Below are positions 1-50,835 of a DNA stretch of 64,000 nt, in pieces. A program made the position numbers and the translations under genes. Below the pieces are notes generated by a model. The model searched no databases, was not told the origin of the DNA, and saw only the letters and a program-made list of their open reading frames with translations. Origin of the DNA: Leadbettera azotonutricia ZAS-9 (lineage in GTDB: Bacteria; Spirochaetota; Spirochaetia; Treponematales; Breznakiellaceae); assembly GCF_000214355.1 (NCBI RefSeq), contig NC_015577.1, positions 2,905,389 through 2,969,388 on the forward strand. The letters run 5' to 3'. How positions within the stretch are numbered: position 1 is the first letter of the stretch; every line of letters begins with the position of its first letter.

Positions 1-315
1 AAAGTTCATATTGCGGATCTCAGTATTATACTCGAAGAAGCCCTGCACGAAAGCGGTGTTTCAGGGGTTGCCCGTTTTTCCCGGGATTTTCTGCTCGACG
101 CTGAAATAGCAGCAGAAGTGTACGACTATTTTGAGCAAACCTTGCGCCTCTTTATTACTGAAGGGAAAGGTAAAACAGGCGACAAATCCGTAGTAGTGTA
201 TATGAAGGGCGAAGAGACGCATCTGGAATTCCGCATGGTAGAAAGCATATCCAATAAAGGAGATCTGCTCTTAAGGATATTCCCTTTGGACACAAAGGAA
301 GAAAACCATGTATAG
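1..315 (+). CDS. 3' end of an unidentified protein, truncated by the window edge
   Basis: The frame is open from base 1 to the TAG at 313-315, giving the last 104 residues of a longer protein. The piece is soluble and mixed alpha/beta. A helix containing ILEEALHESG and a strand pair around SVVVYMKG and HLEFRMVES recall the start of a degenerate histidine-kinase-type ATPase fold, but I see no G1/G2 glycine boxes, so that reading is weak. The stop overlaps the start of the downstream sensor kinase by 8 bases. It is therefore probably cotranscribed with the signalling block and may belong to it. No function assigned. Confidence 0.6.
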   Translation, partial: KVHIADLSIILEEALHESGVSGVARFSRDFLLDAEIAAEVYDYFEQTLRLFITEGKGKTGDKSVVVYMKGEETHLEFRMVESISNKGDLLLRIFPLDTKEENHV

Positions 316-40326: not shown

Positions 40327-41655
40327 TTAGGTTTTCGCACTAGTACTGCGCATTGCGGCGCTTGCGGCGTGGCCTGAAAGGCCCTCGGCACGGGCAATGC
40401 ATTCTGCGGCTTTGAGGGCCTCCGTGTAACCTGAACCGGATGAACAGCGGAGGCTCGTTGCGGTTTTAAGAAAGTGCCGCACCGAAAGGCCCCCGGTAAA
40501 ACGGGCGCTGCCCGAGGTTGGAAGGGTGTGGTTGATACCGACTGAATAATCGCCCAGGACTTCGGCAGATGCTTCCCCGATAAAAAGGGAACCGTAATTT
40601 CTCAAGCCTTGAACCCAGGCTTCCGGATTTGCTGTTTGAAGTTCCAGGTGTTCAGGGGCAATAGTGTTGGCAATGCGCGTGGCTTCATCCTTGTTATTAT
40701 AAATGATGATAAGCCCACCCGATTCAAGGGAAGCCCTTGCCGTAGAAGCTGTAGAAAGGTCTGCAAGACGGGATGAAAGCGTCCTGGCAAGAAGATCCGC
40801 AGATTCGCGGTTTGGGACCAATGCCCTGGCCCGTGCATCAGGATCATGCTCGGCCTGGGCGAGCATATCTGCTGCGGTTAAGTTTGCCGAAGATCCTTTT
40901 TGCAGATCCCCCGTAATGATGAGCACATCTGTTGGGCCGGCCACAAAGTCTATGCCGGTTTCTCCGTAAAGGAGACGCTTGGCAAGCGCCACATATTTGT
41001 TGCCGGGGCCGACGATTACATCACAGCGGGGTATGGTTTCTGTCCCCAGGGCGAGAGCGGCAATGGCCTGGGCCCCGCCTATTGCAAAGACCCTCAGCTC
41101 ACTGCGGCTGCAAGTTGCAGACGCAATGCCCGCCGCAGCCAATATCCGCTTGTCTGGGAGGCCGTCTTCAAGAGGGGGAGAGGCCAGGATTACGTCGCCA
41201 ACGCCTGCGCAAAAAGCCGGCACAAGCCCCATGAGGGCTGTGGAAATCAGGGGGAAGCGGCCAGCGGGAACATAAACCGCAGCGCGTTCCACCGGGATTA
41301 CCCTTTGGCCCGTAAACACCCCAGGGGCGATTTCTGTCTCAAAATCCCGAAATTGACTGCGCTGCAATTCGGAAAAACGCCAAATGTTCCCTGCAGAAAA
41401 TTTAAGAGCTCTAACCAGATCAGGATCATTTGCCTCAAGATCGGTCACTGCTTTTTGTACCATATGTCGGGGAACTTCAAATATTTCCGGTGAAGACTTG
41501 TCAAATTTAGCAGCAAAAGTTTTAACTGCCCTATCTCCATTTAAGCGTATTTCTGCTATTATGTCTTTTACTGCAGTCTCCGCAGCAGTATGGTTTTCAG
41601 CGGTATTACGCTTATTCCAATACGCATCAAATTCGTCAGCGTTAAGTATTTTCAT
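40327..41655 (-). CDS. hisD: Histidinol dehydrogenase
   Basis: 442 residues, normal length for HisD, which oxidises histidinol to histidine in two NAD-dependent steps and binds Zn. Recognisable segments: PGGRFPLISTAL-type (YVPAGRFPLISTALMGLVPA), IGGAQAIAALALGTE, DVIVGPGNKYVALAKRLLYG, the GPTDVLIITGD strand, AQAEHDPDARA and DYSVGINHTLPTSG, supplying the Zn and catalytic residues. It is the last gene of the his operon, starting 2 bases after the hisC stop. Confidence 0.95.
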   Translation of the reverse strand: MKILNADEFDAYWNKRNTAENHTAAETAVKDIIAEIRLNGDRAVKTFAAKFDKSSPEIFEVPRHMVQKAVTDLEANDPDLVRALKFSAGNIWRFSELQRSQFRDFETEIAPGVFTGQRVIPVERAAVYVPAGRFPLISTALMGLVPAFCAGVGDVILASPPLEDGLPDKRILAAAGIASATCSRSELRVFAIGGAQAIAALALGTETIPRCDVIVGPGNKYVALAKRLLYGETGIDFVAGPTDVLIITGDLQKGSSANLTAADMLAQAEHDPDARARALVPNRESADLLARTLSSRLADLSTASTARASLESGGLIIIYNNKDEATRIANTIAPEHLELQTANPEAWVQGLRNYGSLFIGEASAEVLGDYSVGINHTLPTSGSARFTGGLSVRHFLKTATSLRCSSGSGYTEALKAAECIARAEGLSGHAASAAMRSTSAKT

Positions 41656-41656
41656 A

Positions 41657-42760
41657 TTATCCCCTGATTATTTCCGCGCATCCATTGAGAAAGGTATCCA
41701 TTTCATCATCAGTACCCATACTGATCCTGAGGTAATTATTGATCCTCGGTTTGTCAAAACGCCGTACCAGTATGCCCTTTTCCCTGAGAGCGGAAAACAC
41801 CTGCATCCCTGACTTTCCCGAAGAAGCAGGGGGAGAGGCAAAAACAAAATTTGCCTGTGAAGGGATTACAGTGAAGCCCATTTGGGCTAAAGAGGCTGAA
41901 ACCTTCTCCCTTGTACTGCATACGTGGCGGTTAACTTCATCATAATATGCAAAATCAGAAACAGCGGCGGCGGCCCCTGCAAGGGCAAGCCGATCCACGG
42001 TATAGGAATTAACAGAATCCCTGACCCTGCAAAGGGCTTCAATAAGATCTTTATGGCCTATGGCAAAACCCACCCTGAGGCCCGCAAGAGATGCGGCTTT
42101 GGAAAGAGTATGCACCGTTAAAAGATTAGGAAATTGTTTTACCAGTGTTACTGCGGATTTTATGCCCGGCTTATCGGCAAAGGCAATATAGGCCTCGTCC
42201 ACAATAAGCGCTTTCCCGTTTTTTTCTTCATATCCTGCCAATTTTGTTATTGCGTCCAGGGCCAGGGCTTTTGCAGTAGGGGCATTGGGGTTGGGGAAAA
42301 TTATTCCGCCGTTGTTTTGCTTGTAATCATCAGGATCTATCGAAAAATTATCTTTAAGTGAAACAGTGCGAAAAGGCACATCCCAAAGGCGTGCATATAC
42401 AGGATAAAAACTGTAGGTAATATCAGGGAACAATATCGGCACTGCGCCGGACACACCTTGACATTCAAAAAACGCAGCAAAGGCAAAGGCCAAGACTTCA
42501 TCGGAACCGTTTCCTGCAAAAACCTGTTCTACGGCTACTCCATAACGGGCGGCGACGGCCTCGCGGAATTCAGTACAGGCAGGATCTGGGTAAAGGCGGA
42601 GCCTTTCATCAGCGGCTTTTGCAATAGCCTCTATCACCTTGGGTGAAGGGGGATAGGGATTCTCATTGGTGTTGAGCTTGATAAACTTCCTGTCCCGAGG
42701 CTGCTCGCCCGGTATGTAGGGGGCCAGGGATTTAACCCGGCTGTTCCAGTAAAGGCTTAT
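41657..42760 (-). CDS. hisC: Histidinol-phosphate aminotransferase with a predicted ATA start
   Basis: 367 residues if translation begins at ATA 42760-42758. The family's essential N-terminal region (YWNSRVKSLAPYIPGEQP, then KLNTNENPYPPSP) is encoded upstream of the first in-frame GTG (42637). The frame is closed by a TGA 18 bases before the ATA, and the only candidates in between are this ATA and a CTG at 42727. AGGAGG lies exactly 8 bases before the ATA, which overlaps the upstream TAA as ATAA, just where ATGA would be expected. The PLP Lys is in HTLSKAASLAGLRVG. It transfers the amino group from glutamate to imidazoleacetol phosphate. Confidence 0.88.
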   Translation of the reverse strand: MSLYWNSRVKSLAPYIPGEQPRDRKFIKLNTNENPYPPSPKVIEAIAKAADERLRLYPDPACTEFREAVAARYGVAVEQVFAGNGSDEVLAFAFAAFFECQGVSGAVPILFPDITYSFYPVYARLWDVPFRTVSLKDNFSIDPDDYKQNNGGIIFPNPNAPTAKALALDAITKLAGYEEKNGKALIVDEAYIAFADKPGIKSAVTLVKQFPNLLTVHTLSKAASLAGLRVGFAIGHKDLIEALCRVRDSVNSYTVDRLALAGAAAAVSDFAYYDEVNRHVCSTREKVSASLAQMGFTVIPSQANFVFASPPASSGKSGMQVFSALREKGILVRRFDKPRINNYLRISMGTDDEMDTFLNGCAEIIRG

Positions 42761-44073
42761 TTTTTGTGCCTCCTGTCAAGTTCATCCAGCACTTCTTCTA
42801 CACCTACCCCCGCGCGGGTGATGAGGGCGGTGGTAAAATAGAGGAGATCCGCGGCTTCCCAGACAATTTCGTCATGGGTTTTGGCAGTGCAGACCTCGTC
42901 TGCCTCTTCCATTACTTTTTCACGTACCAGATCGGCATCCAGGGTTGCGGTGTAGGAACCAGGTTTGGGATTGCTGAAACGTTCGGCAATTACGGACTGG
43001 AGGTATTCCCAGGTGTACCGGCGGTCTGTGCCGAAACAGGACCATGCGCCAGTGTGGCAGACAGGACCTGCGGGTTCTACGATCGCAAGGATAGCGTCCC
43101 TGTCGCAATCGGCTCTGAGGCGCAGCACCTTAAGGGTATTGCCCGAATGTTCACCCTTCATCCAAAGCTTGCTGCGTGTACGGCTGTGAAAGCAGAGATT
43201 CCCGCGCTTGAACGTTTCGCTTACCGCTTCTTCATCTGCAAAGCCTGTCATAAGAACCTGGCCGTCACGGCTTTGGGCTATCACGGGCAGCATGGGCTGG
43301 GGAGGCGCACCTTTCTTCCAGTTTAGGGAACGCAGGAAGGCGTCGGCGAGATTAATTTTTCCTGTATAGAGGGCCATGCCCAGCTGCACATCGCAGCCCA
43401 AGGCTGCAAGGGATTCTACTTCCTCAAGGGTAGTAACACCACCTGCGGCAGTAATACTGCACTCTTTATCATTAAGCCATGAGAGGGCTTTTTTTAATGC
43501 TTTGACCTGTTCCAAATCAATGCCCGTCATGGTGCCTTCGCGTTCCACACAGGTAAAAAGAAGCTCTGCCGCATAGGGGGCGACTTCTATTGCGACTTCG
43601 GCTAGCTTAAGGCCCGTGGGAGTTTTCCAGCCGTCTACAACTATCTCGCCGTTCCGGGAGTCTACCGCAACGATGAGGCGTTCACGGCCGATTTTTTTGG
43701 ATATGGCTTCGAGGAATTCGGTGTTGACTTTGAATTCCCCTGCTGCAATGCCTGCGCCTTTTTTGGCAGGATCGCGGAAGGCATTTGAACCGACAATGAT
43801 CTTTTTTGCGCCAAGGCTCACCAGTTCCCTGGCCTGTTCGGGGCTACGTATGCCGCCCCCTACCCTGCACTCGGCTAGGCGGAGCAATGGCTTTATCATT
43901 TCAAGATTGCTTCCCTTGCCCATGGCGGCGTCAAGGTCGATGACTGCAACTTCGCCATAGAGATCAAATTCTTTGGCCAGGCCCGGGGCGTCTTCCCTTT
44001 GCAGTACCAATTCTGCGCCCTGGCGAAGCTGGACAACTTTTCCGCCCTGTATGTCTATCGAAGCAATTACCAT
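42757..44073 (-). CDS. hisA-hisIE: HisA-HisI-HisE trifunctional fusion
   Basis: 438 residues from the ATG at 44073 (AGGAG ten bases upstream; an ATG at 44082 is only one base from that site). Residues 1-247 are HisA, the ProFAR isomerase barrel with catalytic Asp7 (ASIDIQGGK) and Asp138 (VAVDSRNGE). Residues about 261-350 are HisI, the PR-AMP cyclohydrolase ([10 protein letters not shown]; Zn ligands in ADCDRDA and VCHTGAWSC). Residues about 355-438 are HisE, the PR-ATP pyrophosphatase ([15 protein letters not shown]). Pathway order would be E, I, A: the chain holds three consecutive steps. Overlaps hisF by 7 bases. Confidence 0.93.
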
Positions 44074-44837
44074 CTGACACATACTCCTTTTGATTCAGCG
44101 TATTTTTTTATTTCAGGTATGGTTGTTTTTCCAAAATGCAGCAGTGATGCTACTAACGCCGCGTCGGCCCCCGGATTCTGCAGTACCCCCGCGATCTGAT
44201 CGAGATCCCCTGCGCCGCCCGAAGCAATTACCGGCACCGGCACTGCGTCGAGTATGGCTTTGGTTAATTCCAGATCGTATCCTGTGCCGGTGCCGTCAGC
44301 GTCGATGGAGTTGAGGAGTATCTCCCCTGCCCCAAGCTCCACTGCTTTTATTGCCCATTCAATTGCGTCAAGGCCGGTATCTGTACGTCCCCCGTGAGAA
44401 TAGGCAGTCCACTTCGGATGTACCGCGTCCTTGTCAACACGTTTGGCGTCTATCGAAAGCACCACGCACTGGCTTCCGTAGGCTTTAGCCATTTCGGAAA
44501 GCAATTCAGGACGTTGGAGGGCTGAGGTACAAACCGAAACTTTGTCGGCCCCAGCGTTCATAGCTTCCCTCATATCCTCAACTTTGCGTATGCCGCCCCC
44601 TACACAGAGGGGAATGAAAACTTCGGCTGCGACTTTGCGCACCACATCCAAAAGGGTTTCGCGGCTTTTATAGGAAGCCCCGATGTCGAGGAAGGTAAGC
44701 TCATCTGCACCCTCTTCGTTGTACCGCCGGGCAAGCTCCACGGGATCGCCCGCGTCCTGTATGCCCTTGAACTTGATACCCTTAACCACCCGGCCATCAT
44801 CAACATCCAGGCAGGGAATAATACGTTTAGCCTGCAT
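44067..44837 (-). CDS. hisF: Imidazole glycerol phosphate synthase, cyclase subunit
   Basis: 256 residues, full-length HisF barrel. Opening strand [19 protein letters not shown] with the catalytic Asp11, [28 protein letters not shown], the second catalytic Asp in [10 protein letters not shown], and the closing [16 protein letters not shown]. It uses ammonia from HisH to convert PRFAR into imidazole glycerol phosphate and AICAR. Ten bases after hisH and overlapping hisA-hisIE. Confidence 0.96.
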
Positions 44838-44846
44838 AAAGCCCCC

Positions 44847-45467
44847 TTAACCCATAATCCAGTTTTCAAGCAGCTTGAGACCCCAGGTTCCCGACTTCTC
44901 GGGATGAAACTGCACCGCCGAAAGATTCCCCTGCTCCACTGCGGAACAGTAAGAAAGGTAATAATCCGCTTCCGCCGCAACGGCCCTGTCCCCTGCGGGA
45001 GCCGCGTAGTAAGAATGTATGTAGTAGAAAAAAGAATTTTGAGGAATGTCTTTAAAAAGGCGGCTCCCGGAACGGGCCTTGGTACTGTTCCAGCCAATCT
45101 GGGGAACCTTGCGGCCCGGAAAACGTTTAACGGAGCCGGGGATAATTGAAAGGCCCTTTACTTCCCTGCCGTTCACCGGGGGGGCTTCTTCAGAAGCATC
45201 AAAGAGGAGCTGAAGGCCAATGCAGATACCGAGGAAAGGCCTGTCAGCGTTGATCCACTCTTTTACTGCCTGGGCATAGCCCGACTTTTCAAGGGAGGCC
45301 ATGGCGGTTGCAAAGTGGCCATCGCCGGGGAAGATAATTTTGGCGTAAGGGGTATTGCTGCCGAGTTCTTCGGGTGCCTTGACAAAACGGGCTTCGGTGT
45401 TGAGGCGTTTAAGCGCATTCATCACAGAACCAAGATTGCCTGCGCCGTAATCTATTACACCTATCAT
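44847..45467 (-). CDS. hisH: Imidazole glycerol phosphate synthase, glutaminase subunit
   Basis: 206 residues of the class I amidotransferase type. Start [18 protein letters not shown], nucleophile Cys in [17 protein letters not shown], catalytic His-Glu in VQFHPEKSG. It supplies ammonia to HisF through the barrel. Coupled to hisB by an ATGA overlap. Confidence 0.96.
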
Positions 45468-46033
45468 GCTAAAACACCTTTGGTCGAGGGTATGAGGCCG
45501 ATTGACCGGGGATCGATTTCGCAGGCTTCCCTCAGGGCCCGGGCTGCCGCTTTAAAGAGGGCTTCAACTTTGTGATGATCGCTGCGGCCCCTGAGTATGT
45601 CCAGGTGCAGCGCCGCGCCTGCGCTTGACGCGAACCCCTGCCAAAAATCCTGGGCCGTGTCGTTGCCCGGAAGGCCTGCTTCAAAAACCAGAAAACTCCG
45701 GCCCGAAAGATCTACCGCGGCCCTGGCAAGGGTCTCGTCCATGGGGTATAGGCAGCTTCCAACGCGGCGTATGCTTTCTTTATTGCCAAGAGCTTTGGCA
45801 AAACACTGGCCCAGGACTATGCCGGTATCTTCCACCAGGTGATGCTGGTCAACTTCAAGATCCCCGGAGGCCCTTATTTCCAAATCGAAAAGACCATGGC
45901 GGGCAAAGGTGTTAAGCATATGGGCCATGAAACCTATGGGATAATCCAGCTTCGCCGTTCCCTTGCCGTCAAGGTCAAGCTTGATGGTAATATTGGTTTC
46001 TTTGGTACTTCTGGTAACTTCTGCAGTTCTCAT
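45464..46033 (-). CDS. hisB: Imidazoleglycerol-phosphate dehydratase
   Basis: 189 residues from the ATG at 46033, preceded by GGAGGA; the frame is open slightly further upstream. The Mn-binding motifs are HMLNTFARHGLFDLEIRA, DQHHLVEDTGIVLGQ and RSDHHKVEALFKA. It is the monofunctional form, without the histidinol-phosphatase domain of enteric HisB. No histidinol phosphatase gene occurs in this operon, so that step must be encoded elsewhere. Confidence 0.95.
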   Translation of the reverse strand: MRTAEVTRSTKETNITIKLDLDGKGTAKLDYPIGFMAHMLNTFARHGLFDLEIRASGDLEVDQHHLVEDTGIVLGQCFAKALGNKESIRRVGSCLYPMDETLARAAVDLSGRSFLVFEAGLPGNDTAQDFWQGFASSAGAALHLDILRGRSDHHKVEALFKAAARALREACEIDPRSIGLIPSTKGVLA

Positions 46034-46049
46034 ATTAATTCCTCCATTG

Positions 46050-46904
46050 TTAAGGAACAACTTTCCTCAAATCATATTCTACAATGTCCCCTGCGCCCAG
46101 CTTTTTCAGCCTGGGTATAAGTTCAGGGACTTCGTGTTTTTTTACGGCGATTTTTACTGCAAAACCGTCACTCCCGCAAAGGGGCGCAACCGTAGGGCTG
46201 CGCATGGACGGAAGGCCCGAAACAAGCTCGTTGAAATTCTCCTCGGTAACGTTCATCTCAAGCATCACCCTGTCGCGGCCTTCGAGAACCGCGTTAAAGA
46301 GCATGGCAAGTTCTTCGATGCGGCCCCGCTTTTCGGGGTTTGCCATAGCGGCCTTGGAAGCTACAAAACGGGTGGAAGATTCCAGAACAGTGGCGATGAT
46401 TTTAAGGCCGTTATCTTTAAGGGTCTGGCCCGAAGCGGTATTGTCAATGATCATGTCAGCGTCATCAGGGGGGAAAACTTCGGTGGCCCCGTAGGTACGG
46501 AGTATGCGATAATTGTAATTCTCTTTCTTGAGCCACTTCTCAGCCAGGTTGACGTATTCTGTGGCAACCACGATCTTGCGGGCTTTGAGCTGCGCCTCGC
46601 TTGTTTCAGCGGGAATGGCGGCAACAATGCGCACCTTGTCCATGCCCAGATCCAGGATCTCTTCTACATCGGCGCCGTTTTCCTGTATCCAGTCGATGCC
46701 CGTAAAGCCCGCATCGTGGCTCCCCAATTCCAGAAGCTCGCCTACATTCTGGGGTTTCATGATCTTGGCGTCCAGCCAGTCGGCCGCAATCACAGGCCGA
46801 TAGGTACGGTCCGCGAGGTACATGGGGAATCCTGCCTCGTCGAACAATTTGGAAACATTGTCAAAAATCCTCCCCTTGGGGATAAGGATACGCAGCTTGT
46901 CCAT
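46050..46904 (-). CDS. hisG: ATP phosphoribosyltransferase, long form
   Basis: 284 residues from the ATG at 46904 with AGGAG eight bases upstream. The catalytic part starts LRILIPKGRIFDNVSKLF and contains the PRPP loop region DNTASGQTLKDNGL. The C-terminal 75 residues (ending VEYDLRKVVP) are the ACT-like regulatory domain of long-form HisG, so no HisZ is needed and feedback inhibition by histidine is expected. First structural gene of the operon; a leader region of about 160 bases lies upstream. Confidence 0.95.
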   Translation of the reverse strand: MDKLRILIPKGRIFDNVSKLFDEAGFPMYLADRTYRPVIAADWLDAKIMKPQNVGELLELGSHDAGFTGIDWIQENGADVEEILDLGMDKVRIVAAIPAETSEAQLKARKIVVATEYVNLAEKWLKKENYNYRILRTYGATEVFPPDDADMIIDNTASGQTLKDNGLKIIATVLESSTRFVASKAAMANPEKRGRIEELAMLFNAVLEGRDRVMLEMNVTEENFNELVSGLPSMRSPTVAPLCGSDGFAVKIAVKKHEVPELIPRLKKLGAGDIVEYDLRKVVP

Positions 46905-46956: not shown

Positions 46957-46989
46957 AAAAAAAAAGCCGTGGACTTTGAGTCCACGGCT
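46957..46989 (-). terminator. his operon attenuator: terminator hairpin
   Basis: On the minus strand AGCCGTGGACT (46989-46979) pairs perfectly with AGTCCACGGCT (46975-46965) around a three-base loop, and nine U residues follow (46965-46957). It lies after the leader peptide and before hisG, the right place to stop transcription when histidine is plentiful. A rival pairing uses TGGACTCA (46984-46977) with TGAGTCCA (47026-47019), which would break this stem. Confidence 0.88.
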
Positions 46990-47007
46990 GCATAACCGCT
47001 CTAACGC

Positions 47008-47067
47008 CTAAAAGGCGATGGACTCAGGAGACGTAAAATTATGATGGTGATTAGAAATCCGTTTCAT
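47008..47067 (-). CDS. hisL: his operon leader peptide
   Basis: A 19-codon frame, MKRISNHHHNFTSPESIAF then TAG, lies between the his promoter and the terminator. Codons 7-9 are CAC CAT CAT, three histidines in a row, so scarce charged tRNA-His would stall the ribosome there. The antiterminator arm (47019-47026) lies inside the 3' end of the peptide's reading frame. No Shine-Dalgarno sequence precedes the ATG, and the predicted transcription start falls on the ATG itself, so it is probably translated as a leaderless mRNA. Confidence 0.82.
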   Translation of the reverse strand: MKRISNHHHNFTSPESIAF

Positions 47068-47074
47068 AGACTAC

Positions 47075-47103
47075 AGTCTAGCAGCCAGCGAATTTATTGT
47101 CAA
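47075..47103 (-). promoter_or_regulatory. his operon promoter
   Basis: On the minus strand TTGACA (47103-47098) and TAGACT (47080-47075) are separated by 17 bases. This is the best sigma-70-type promoter in the window. The ATG of the leader peptide begins 8 bases after the -10 element. Confidence 0.88.
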
Positions 47104-47107
47104 GTGC

Positions 47108-48091
47108 TTAGAATTCTTCGTATCTGCCTGTCTGCGAAGTATCGTAGCCGCCAAGAATTTCAAGATCCTGCTTGAATTCCGGCGAATCAACATAGCTCAA
47201 AATGCTTCTTACTGCGGAAGTATTTTTATCGGAAAGGCGGAATACAAAATCGTACCATTCAAGCTGAAGGGGTATGAACTCAATGCCCTGTATACCTTCC
47301 GCGCCTCTTGCACAGCCGCAGCCCAGATCCGCACCGCCCTTAGCCACTATTCCTGCGCAGACCAGGTGAGAACCTGATTCCCTGGTGTAACCCTGTATAC
47401 CTTGAGGATCAATGTTCAGCCCTGTCAGTTTCTGATCCAGCAGTATCCGTGTACCGCAGCCTTTTTCGCGGTTGATTATGGTGATGCCGGGTCTGGCAAG
47501 ATCCTTCCAGCTTTCTATCTTGAGAGGATTTTTTTTCTTCACATAAAAGCCCTGCATACGTCCTGCAAGGCGCAACACGCCGACCCGTAATCCCGGGAGC
47601 AGCCGATGCATAAAAGGATAGTTATAGGTATCGGTTTCTGCATCCCAGAGGTGAGAGGCGGCCATGGTGATCCTGCCGTTGTAGAGGGCATAGAGACTGT
47701 TGTAACAGCCCATGTACGATCGGAGGACGGACTCCCCTGTTCCGGCTATTTTGGGCAGCAGAAGATCGATACAGGCATCCTGGCCTGAAACAATGATGGA
47801 CGCGCCGCTTGTCTGTATGGATTCAGCAGGCATTCTGCGTAACGTTCCGGCCACCGGTCCGGACCCGTCCCAGGAGCAATCTTCATCGTCAGTTCCGACA
47901 GCGCTTGTTTTTGCCCGAGGACCTGTCTTGCCTGCCTGAAGATAGAAATCTATATCCGCCTGGGAAACCCGCACTTGTTTTCCCACTTTTGAAGAGGGCA
48001 GTTCTCCCCGTTTGATAAGTTCGTAGACCGTATATTTCTTAATCCGCAGTTGGCCAGCCACGTCTTCGGCGGTTAGCAGGGTAGATTCCAT
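47108..48091 (-). CDS. Excisionase-type HTH regulator with a PBP-like ligand domain (probable molybdate regulator)
   Basis: 327 residues from the ATG at 48091, where the domain begins; the ribosome site is poor and the frame is open further upstream. Residues 1-60 are a MerR/excisionase-type helix-turn-helix (LLTAEDVAGQLRIKKYTVYEL). Residues about 90-310 resemble the PBP-like domain (PF12727) of proteins related to molybdate-binding ModA, with PLKIESWKDLARPGITIINREKGCGTRILLD. It is transcribed away from modA with a 181-base shared gap. Role inferred: sensing molybdate or a related oxyanion and controlling mod genes. Confidence 0.8.
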   Translation of the reverse strand: MESTLLTAEDVAGQLRIKKYTVYELIKRGELPSSKVGKQVRVSQADIDFYLQAGKTGPRAKTSAVGTDDEDCSWDGSGPVAGTLRRMPAESIQTSGASIIVSGQDACIDLLLPKIAGTGESVLRSYMGCYNSLYALYNGRITMAASHLWDAETDTYNYPFMHRLLPGLRVGVLRLAGRMQGFYVKKKNPLKIESWKDLARPGITIINREKGCGTRILLDQKLTGLNIDPQGIQGYTRESGSHLVCAGIVAKGGADLGCGCARGAEGIQGIEFIPLQLEWYDFVFRLSDKNTSAVRSILSYVDSPEFKQDLEILGGYDTSQTGRYEEF

Positions 48092-48209
48092 GAAAAGAGT
48101 ATACACAACTAATAGAAAAAATGCAATTAAACTATGCCCGGCCTGGGTATTTGTGCATTCATAATAGTCTGTTTGATTATGTTTCATTTTGTTTTGTTGT
48201 ATTCCACTA

Positions 48210-48236
48210 TTGTATATTGTTTCGTTTTATTATACT
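48210..48236 (+). promoter_or_regulatory. Possible modA promoter with an overlapping inverted repeat
   Basis: TTGTAT (48210) and TATACT (48231-48236) are 15 bases apart, shorter than ideal. GTATA (48212-48216) and TATAC (48231-48235) form an inverted repeat across the same bases. A regulator bound there, for example the divergently encoded one, would block the promoter. Confidence 0.35.
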
Positions 48237-48272
48237 CTCTTGCTGGAATTCATTATTAAGGAGGAACCTATA

Positions 48273-49097
48273 ATGAAAAAGGAAGGAATTCTTACCTTCG
48301 GCAGGCCTTTGGCCTTGTTTGCCCTGATGTCTCTCGCGGCTGCCCAGCTCTTTGCGGGCGGTAAAAGCGAGGCCGTGCCAAACAAGGCTGAGCCTGAGCA
48401 TCAGCCTGTTACGATTCTGGTGGCTGCAGCAGCGAGCCTTCAATATTCCTATCAGGAGCTTATCCCCCTCTTTCAGGAACAGTATCCCTGGATTACCGTA
48501 GATGGGACTTACGACAGTTCGGGCAAACTCCAGACCCAGATTGAGCAGGGCCTTGAGGCCGATGTGTTCATGTCGGCTGCCATGACCCAAATGAACAACC
48601 TCGTAAAGGGCGGTCTTGTGGCTGCTGATTCGGTTAAGCCCCTGCTGGAAAATAAAATTGTATTGATAAAGCCCGCAGGTACGGTTACTCCGGTTACAGG
48701 TTTTGAGAATTGCGCCCAGGCAAAGATCATAGCCCTTGGCGATCCCGCCAGTGTCCCTGCAGGCCAGTATGCCAAAGAGGCCTTTACCAGCCTGGGCAAC
48801 TGGGATGCCGTTTCAGCCAGGGCCAGTTTCGGTACCAATGTTACAGAGGTGCTCAATTGGGTAGGCGAAGGCAGCGCCGAAGTTGGGGTGGTATATGCTA
48901 CCGATGCGGCAACCAGCAAAAAAGTCGAAATCATTGCCGAAGCGCCCGCAGGCAGCCTTTCGGCAAAAGTACTCTATCCTATAGGCATAGTAAACGCCTC
49001 CGCAAAAAAAGACGCGGCAAAACTATTCATGGATTTCCTTGCTTCGCCTGACGGGCTCGCAATCTTTTTGAAATACGGATTCGCGGGGAATAAATAG
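48273..49097 (+). CDS. modA: Molybdate ABC-importer binding protein
   Basis: 274 residues from the ATG at 48273 behind AAGGAGGA. Sec signal peptide ending at LFA before GGKSEA, with no lipobox. The mature part matches ModA: VTILVAAAASLQYSYQELIP, TYDSSGKLQTQIEQGLEADVFMSA, ASFGTNVTEVLNWVGEGSAEVGVVY. It binds molybdate or tungstate in the periplasm and delivers it to ModBC. Molybdenum supply for the FeMo-cofactor of the nitrogenase encoded 4 kb away is the obvious role. Confidence 0.93.
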   Translation: MKKEGILTFGRPLALFALMSLAAAQLFAGGKSEAVPNKAEPEHQPVTILVAAAASLQYSYQELIPLFQEQYPWITVDGTYDSSGKLQTQIEQGLEADVFMSAAMTQMNNLVKGGLVAADSVKPLLENKIVLIKPAGTVTPVTGFENCAQAKIIALGDPASVPAGQYAKEAFTSLGNWDAVSARASFGTNVTEVLNWVGEGSAEVGVVYATDAATSKKVEIIAEAPAGSLSAKVLYPIGIVNASAKKDAAKLFMDFLASPDGLAIFLKYGFAGNK

Positions 49098-49102
49098 TTT
49101 TT

Positions 49103-49768
49103 ATGGATTTGACCCCGGTTTTAATTTCACTTAAGACCGCATCGGCATCTATTGCAGCAACCTTTTTTTTGGGGCTGCTGCTGGCAGAATTTGTTGCATC
49201 CACCAGGCGCAGGGAACTCAAGATGATACTCGACGGCATACTCACCCTGCCCCTGGTGCTTCCCCCCACAGTGGCAGGTTTTTTCCTGCTCTGGATATTC
49301 GGAGTGAGAGGGCCTGTGGGAAAATTTTTCGTAGACCTTTTCGGTGTTAAGATAGCTTTTTCCTGGGCCGCTACAGTGCTTGCTTCTGCTGCAATCTCCT
49401 TTCCCATGATGTACCGTTCCGCAAGGGGCGCTTTGGAACAGGTAGATCCCAACCTACTTTATGCGGCCAGAACCCTCGGTATGGGAGAATGGACAATTTT
49501 CTGGAAGGTGAGTCTCCCTACCGCCTTGCCCGGTATTGCCTCGGGGGCGGTGCTGGCCTTTGCCCGGGGTCTTGGTGAATTCGGCGCTACTGCCATGATT
49601 GCAGGCAACATAGCCGGCAAAACCCGTACCCTGCCCCTAGCGATATATTCCGCAGTCGCCGCAGGGGACATGAATACTGCGGGTGTGTATGTAGCAATCA
49701 TTGTACTGCTTTCCTTTGCGGTAGTAGCATTAATGAATTATTTTACCATACATGAAAGAAGAAAGTAG
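49103..49768 (+). CDS. modB: Molybdate ABC-importer permease
   Basis: 221 residues, five transmembrane helices, normal ModB length. EAA-type loop YAARTLGMGEWTIFWKVSLP at about residue 117, and the ModB motif FARGLGEFGATAMIAGNIAGKTRTLPLAIY. It begins 5 bases after modA and ends 11 bases before the predicted modC start. Confidence 0.93.
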   Translation: MDLTPVLISLKTASASIAATFFLGLLLAEFVASTRRRELKMILDGILTLPLVLPPTVAGFFLLWIFGVRGPVGKFFVDLFGVKIAFSWAATVLASAAISFPMMYRSARGALEQVDPNLLYAARTLGMGEWTIFWKVSLPTALPGIASGAVLAFARGLGEFGATAMIAGNIAGKTRTLPLAIYSAVAAGDMNTAGVYVAIIVLLSFAVVALMNYFTIHERRK

Positions 49769-49779
49769 GAGAGTATGCC

Positions 49780-50835
49780 ATTAGCATCAAGGTTTCAATA
49801 CTAAAAAAATTATCTTCCCGGTTCAAGCTTGAAATTGAATTTGAAACTTCAGGCGGCGCTGGTGAATGCCTGGGCATATTGGGGGTTTCAGGTTCAGGCA
49901 AGAGCATGACCCTCAAATGCATTGCAGGCATCGAAACACCCGATGAGGGGCATATTGAAGTTAATGGCCGCCTTCTTTTTGATTCAACAAAAAAAATCAA
50001 CCTTAAACCCCAGGCAAGAAAAGCAGGTTATCTCTTTCAGAATTACGCCCTCTTTCCCAGAATGACAGTGATGGAAAACATTACCGCAGGTCTTTTGCTT
50101 CCCAAAAACGAAGCCCGCAGTAGAGCTGACCTTTTGCTTGGGCGTTTTGAACTTGAAGGCCTTGAAAACCGTTATCCTGAGCAGCTTTCAGGAGGCCAGC
50201 AGCAGAGGGTGGCCTTGGCCCGCATGCTCATCAGGGAACCGGAGGCGGTGCTTCTGGATGAGCCATTTTCCGCCCTGGATACCAATTTGCGGGAACAGAT
50301 GCAGATCAGCTTCCCTGATTTTTTAAGATCCTGTAAAGATGTGATCATGGTAACACACTCAAGGGACGAAGTGTACCGGCTTTGCAGCGAAACCCTGATA
50401 CTCGATAAGGGCAGCTGCATTAAGATGGGCAAGACCCGCGATCTTTTTCTTAATCCCGGCCTGGTCCAGGCTGCCCGGCTTACGGGGTGCAAAAATATTT
50501 CTCCCATTAGGCGCATTGGCGAGGATGAAATCATCGCCCTCGACTGGGGGCTCACTCTCAGAACCGCAGTCCCTGTTTCGGATAGAATTACCCAGGTAGG
50601 GATCAGGGCTCATGATCTTTTGCCCGCAAAGAGCGAATCGGCCGTTAATCAGATAGCCCTCAAGGTGATTCAAATTTCAGAAGAACCTTTTGAAAATGTC
50701 ATCCTCTTTACCAATGCCGAAACCAGCTCTGCTGAAACTCAAAAAACCATCTGGTGGAAATATAGCAAGTATTCAGGTCTCACAATTCCTGAAAAACTTT
50801 TTATTCCACCTGAAAATTTGCTCTTGCTGGAATAG
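49780..50835 (+). CDS. modC: Molybdate ABC-importer ATPase with a predicted ATT start
   Basis: 351 residues if the start is ATT at 49780. Family proteins begin MS-x-x-V, and here the frame gives (I)SIKVSILKKLSSRFKLEIEF before LGILGVSGSGKSMTLKC; no ATG, GTG or TTG exists between the in-frame TGA (49753) and a TTG inside the Walker A strand (49879), which would remove strand 1. AGGAG at 49767-49771 is 8 bases from the ATT. An ATG at 49775 is in the wrong frame and stops after nine codons. Other motifs: YLFQNYALFP, LSGGQQQRVA, AVLLDEPFSALD, THSRDE and a C-terminal TOBE domain. Confidence 0.88.
   Translation: MSIKVSILKKLSSRFKLEIEFETSGGAGECLGILGVSGSGKSMTLKCIAGIETPDEGHIEVNGRLLFDSTKKINLKPQARKAGYLFQNYALFPRMTVMENITAGLLLPKNEARSRADLLLGRFELEGLENRYPEQLSGGQQQRVALARMLIREPEAVLLDEPFSALDTNLREQMQISFPDFLRSCKDVIMVTHSRDEVYRLCSETLILDKGSCIKMGKTRDLFLNPGLVQAARLTGCKNISPIRRIGEDEIIALDWGLTLRTAVPVSDRITQVGIRAHDLLPAKSESAVNQIALKVIQISEEPFENVILFTNAETSSAETQKTIWWKYSKYSGLTIPEKLFIPPENLLLLE

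Follow-up and report, generated by a model that had tools for sequence, protein, structure and literature searches.

The closest described system is the enterobacterial his leader (hisL; Rfam RF00514), in which a short peptide with a run of His codons, seven in the enterics, is encoded ahead of hisG, the first gene of the operon, and an antiterminator competes with a terminator, a stalling ribosome being the presumed sensor. In the Firmicutes, namely the Bacillus cereus group, Peptostreptococcaceae and Erysipelotrichales, his attenuators have been found by comparison, again with His leader peptides (3–5 His codons), an antiterminator and a terminator upstream of his operons (PMC9413887). Attenuators of other amino acids have been reported whose RNA begins at or beside the start codon of the leader peptide. 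For the C. glutamicum ilvBNC attenuator, transcription starts one nucleotide from the start codon of the leader IlvL (PMC11857589), and in S. meliloti the ATG of the attenuator peptide trpL forms the 5′ end of the rnTrpL RNA (PMC7298713). The former concerns branched-chain amino acids in an actinobacterium, follows a three-hairpin model and has been tested experimentally, and the latter concerns tryptophan in an alphaproteobacterium, where both the peptide and the RNA have functions in trans as well. Cysteine-rich upstream ORFs in mycobacteria have been discussed as candidate attenuators (PMC4633059). Amino-acid regulation in spirochaetes is little described; we found no description of a spirochaete his attenuator in the open-access literature, and a 2010 comparative survey by Lopatovskaya et al., known to us through its citation in PMC4833913, may cover spirochaetes.

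Here we analyse a stretch of 64,000 nucleotides (the window) from the termite-gut spirochaete Leadbettera azotonutricia ZAS-9, whose genome is a single contig of 3,855,671 bases and whose relatives include termite-gut Treponema and Breznakiella homolactica. The window holds what is very probably a ribosome-stalling transcription attenuator of the his operon with a leader peptide translated from a leaderless RNA. All of the hisL features listed above recur in it, but the spirochaete leader has three His codons, lacks a Shine-Dalgarno sequence, has its start codon at the presumed 5′ end of the RNA, comes from a different phylum and goes without an Rfam match: at the gathering score RF00514 (His_leader) matched neither the window nor the genome, and 18 leader loci gave no his-leader match up to E = 1. 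An earlier reading of the DNA from its letters alone (the sequence-only reading) had considered a leaderless attenuator unusual outside high-GC Gram-positives, which holds only in part, since with ilvBNC and trpL known besides, leaderless attenuation has precedents and also occurs outside those bacteria. What is apparently new and undescribed is a his attenuator of the leaderless type, found in spirochaetes and kept in two of their lineages.

Anatomy of the his leader

The his leader element in the window is real. TTGACA-17-TAGACT, the ATG, the 19-codon ORF, the pairing and the terminator were each found as the sequence-only reading had described them, all on the minus strand, which it had left unstated (Table 1). 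The A of the leader ATG (47067, minus strand) is the eighth base after the −10 element, with seven bases between, and is presumed to be the transcription start or adjacent to it; no Shine-Dalgarno sequence could be read within reach of this ATG at this locus. The ORF closes with a TAG at 47010–47008. Within it, TGAGTCCA (47026–47019) is the exact complement of TGGACTCA (46984–46977) over 8 bp, or 9 bp if extended. The terminator consists of an 11-bp stem (46989–46979 with 46975–46965), a 3-nt loop and a run of nine T (46965–46957), the first of which is paired, and its hairpin has a folding energy of −19.1 kcal/mol. Antiterminator (2:3) and terminator (3:4) compete with each other through the shared strand 3. 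The ATG of hisG (46904, minus strand) is preceded by AGGAG, and the his operon downstream of the leader is apparently complete. One ORF of the operon, of 441 aa (42757–44082, minus strand), reads as HisA fused with HisI and HisE.

Table 1. Features of the his leader and operon, in coordinates of the window
Feature	Position	Strand	Basis
−35 element TTGACA	47098–47103	−	read directly; register of TTGAC shared by 65 of 66 His leaders
−10 element TAGACT, 17-bp spacer	47075–47080	−	read directly
Leader peptide ORF MKRISNHHHNFTSPESIAF, 19 codons	47008–47067	−	read directly; register conserved
Regulatory codons CAC CAT CAT (His7–His9; nt 19–27)	47041–47049	−	read directly; His runs in relatives
Strand 1, CGGATT (codons 3–4), can pair with strand 2	47056–47061	−	comparison; changes with strand 2 in G023 and G087
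Strand 2, TGAGTCCA, 5′ side of antiterminator, inside leader ORF (nt 42–49)	47019–47026	−	read directly; shuffle tests
Strand 3, TGGACTCA, 3′ side of antiterminator and part of 5′ arm of terminator	46977–46984	−	read directly
Intrinsic terminator, hairpin (strands 3 and 4) 46989–46965 and U run to 46957	46957–46989	−	
hisG, first gene of the regulated operon	46050–46904	−	Pfam HisG and HisG_C
Rest of the his operon	40327–46033	−	hisB, hisH, hisF by Pfam; hisA-hisIE fusion, hisC, hisD by reading of translations

Conservation and promoter register in the Spirochaetia

Compared across genomes, the his leader is deeply conserved, across two lineages of Spirochaetia. The sequence-only reading had proposed a search for the same leader before hisG in other treponemes. 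We took all ORFs of 6–60 codons with a His cluster at most 420 nt upstream of hisG, ignoring promoters. The order-level sample comprised 119 genomes, of which 95 had hisG, and 90 hisG loci were examined. A His-rich leader was present at 49 of these 90 loci of the window's order, and in every one of the 49 TTGAC lies 35–40 nt before an in-frame start codon, a six-position interval in which chance would place it in less than 1% of cases (6/1024). A second family of the class (f13, the five Spirochaetia families being labelled f1, f3, f4, f5 and f13), with HisG only about 25% identical, has the leader at 17 of the 17 loci examined, 16 of them in promoter register. A phylum-wide His pattern, in which the frame was not enforced and chance hits were many, was used only to point to f13. 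Over the five families, TTGAC is in register in 65 of 66 His leaders, with spacers of 16–18 bp and 6–10 nt from the −10 element to the start codon, and this constancy supports the earlier proposal of a leaderless leader peptide. Relatives carry three to six His codons per leader. The earlier count of three for the window is borne out, and what had seemed few is simply the low end of that range.

Within the window's own family, a His-rich ORF was found at 33 of 80 named loci, 28 of them at 35–37 nt. At most of the family's loci without a leader, another open frame closely precedes hisG, so that hisG probably does not come first at those loci. Thirteen loci taken from other lineages of the phylum yielded no such leader. 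When the leaderless-leader pattern was recast for Trp and run on 39 genomes, it returned mostly coding-sequence noise, and we therefore make no claim for other amino acids.

The surroundings of the start codon are consistent with a leaderless RNA, for which the register is indirect evidence. Shine-Dalgarno pairing averages −0.9 kcal/mol before the leader versus −5.4 kcal/mol before hisG, a few leaders scoring lower through promoter sequence. In 53 of the 66 leaders a pyrimidine precedes the start codon, which would be expected of transcripts that begin with the A of AUG. Many leaders of f4 have 9–10 nt after the −10 element, so that their RNAs may carry a UTR of a few nt in this family. The exception to both register and absence of a Shine-Dalgarno sequence is G330, where AAAGGAGGAG stands at Shine-Dalgarno distance as a strong ribosome-binding signal and a promoter in register is absent. 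This Shine-Dalgarno-led leader (L198; AAAGGAGGAG, MKAYHRHHHFIEVRR), whose ATG lies some 135 nt ahead of the hisG match, makes a natural contrast pair with all other examined f13 leaders, which by their sequences are leaderless.

The antiterminator

In this leader, repeated codons for the operon's end product and an intrinsic terminator are joined by an antiterminator whose formation, in masked folds, depends on the position of the ribosome. With a ribosome mask over the His codons, the 2:3 antiterminator folds at −21.9 kcal/mol (transcript to nt 96); moving the mask to the stop codon abolishes this helix, and the longer transcript then folds into the terminator. Folding of the full-length RNA without a time constraint always favours the terminator, which suggests a switch governed by timing, like that of classical attenuators.

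The complementarity of the window's antiterminator exceeded that of 100 out of 100 dinucleotide shuffles in a first test (z = −4.1), in which the region was cut at the stop codon and antiterminators overlapping the stop, such as CATAGGGTCC, were missed; in a second test that corrected this, p was 0.015. Pooled over related leaders, the shuffle z of the antiterminator helix was 5.9 in the window's family (38 leaders) and 10.0 in three other families (37 leaders), values that are upper limits because related sequences were treated as independent and a few loci were present twice under different identifiers. A simple terminator finder also picked the wrong hairpin in some leaders (for instance L002, L200 and L202), which lowered the pooled value. 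The relatives build the same helix from other letters, such as TCGCGGTCG with CGACCGCGA, CATAGGGTCC with GGACTCTATG, TGCCGGAA with TTCCGGCA and GAGCCGGT with GCCGGCTC. These comparisons support an antiterminator helix that is kept in the window's order despite changed letters and, with it, the ribosome-stalling his attenuator put forward in the sequence-only reading.

Strand 1 likewise lies in codons 3–4 in the window's family, usually as CGGATT, and pairs with strand 2; the two strands change together, giving GGACCCT with AGGGTCC in G023 and CGGGC with GCCCG in G087. Judged by these comparisons, the family's leader is a four-strand attenuator with a layout like the classical one. Nearly all relatives with a His leader have a terminator, including 17 of 17 f13 loci, and a simple contiguous-helix test did not recover a significant antiterminator in f13 (pooled z 1.2).

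Leaderless-type promoters in the genome

In the genome of the window, 50 sites fit TTGACA-16..18-TANNNT-5..8-ATG and 4 fit the reversed pattern, and the same promoter with an ATG 20–23 or 35–38 nt after the −10 element occurs 22 and 26 times, respectively. ORFs of at least 60 codons follow in 31 of the 49 cases inspected (examples L091–L139). These counts suggest that leaderless genes are probably common in this genome, so that the leader peptide would use an initiation mode that the organism has anyway. In an earlier survey, 6 of 18 spirochaete genomes were reported to have leaderless genes, at 3.9% of genes on average (PMC3160421). The ORFs behind such promoters include Fur-like and GntR-like regulators.

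Proposed mechanism and alternatives

In the mechanism that we propose, transcription would begin on the A of the leader AUG or at an adjacent base, and the ribosome would load directly on this 5′-terminal AUG. When charged tRNA-His is scarce, the ribosome would stall at His7–His9, covering strand 1 and leaving strand 2 free to pair with strand 3 as the antiterminator, and the his operon would be transcribed. When histidine is plentiful, the ribosome would reach the stop codon (nt 58–60) and cover strand 2, whereupon strands 3 and 4 would pair and transcription would stop at the U run. If no ribosome is present, strand 1 could hold strand 2 and the terminator would form. To judge from its sequences, this looks like an old solution in which a classical control circuit runs with no ribosome-binding site.

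The neighbouring gene upstream bears on how the RNA begins and on what the hairpin is for. It lies on the same strand and ends at 47108, 5 bp before the his −35 element, with no terminator between, so that read-through RNA may exist. Attenuation could accordingly be real and the leader not leaderless, the start lying further upstream and the peptide being made either by internal initiation that needs no Shine-Dalgarno sequence or by ribosomes that re-initiate once past the upstream gene; the Shine-Dalgarno-led version in G330 adds to this possibility. We consider it unlikely, as the 35–40 nt between TTGAC and the start codon in all 49 leaders of the order, and the promoter register in 65 of 66 overall, argue against a gene-distant transcription start, which would not fix this distance. 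The same missing terminator would also fit a hairpin that serves only to terminate the upstream gene, which encodes an HTH_17/PBP_like protein, with the His codons there by accident. Two findings speak against a mere upstream-gene terminator and make this explanation extremely improbable: leaders rich in His codons and accompanied by a terminator stand ahead of hisG in five families, and antiterminator complementarity is found in the window's order.

Control by a DNA-binding repressor was considered because a 6-bp inverted repeat (TAGACT-GT-AGTCTA; TAGACTGTAGTCTA, 47080–47067, minus strand) overlaps the −10 element and the presumed start, and another leaderless-type promoter of the genome, L117, reads CTAGACTGTCTAGATG. 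The palindrome is not kept in the his promoters of relatives, whereas register, His run and terminator are, and we set it aside as an operator on this ground; that the promoter is mainly under such a repressor seems very unlikely. L117 itself carries CTAGACTGTCTAG, which is similar to the palindrome.

Returning to the attenuator with a leaderless leader, RNA that reads through from the upstream gene should remain untranslated in the leader, which has no Shine-Dalgarno sequence, and should terminate; the same hairpin may in this way insulate the his operon from upstream read-through. Leaderless initiation may even be an ancestral, selected feature of his attenuation in Spirochaetia that couples the first ribosome to polymerase and insulates the operon, a tentative idea that we hold to be somewhat doubtful. 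If it is true, direct loading on the 5′ AUG would couple the first ribosome to polymerase at once, and antitermination would be limited to RNAs begun at the his promoter, with upstream read-through always terminating. The dozens of leaders in which promoter, start codon, His run and terminator keep a fixed register are a natural test set for two questions: whether attenuation can be driven by leaderless initiation, and how a ribosome stays in step with polymerase when there is no 5′ UTR. Further, the element, which is absent from Rfam, may serve as a sequence marker for leaderless starts in the spirochaete phylum.

Two observations concern the neighbourhood of the his loci. Near hisG of G080, a sub-threshold match to the fluoride riboswitch was found at L031:448–563 (plus strand; 29.3 bits with a cut-off of 34, E = 0.0003). 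In the window, the HTH_17 and PBP_like protein (47108–48187, minus strand) is a probable regulator, and its gene is divergent to genes for a solute-binding protein and an ABC transporter, molybdate-like in appearance (48189–50835, plus strand).
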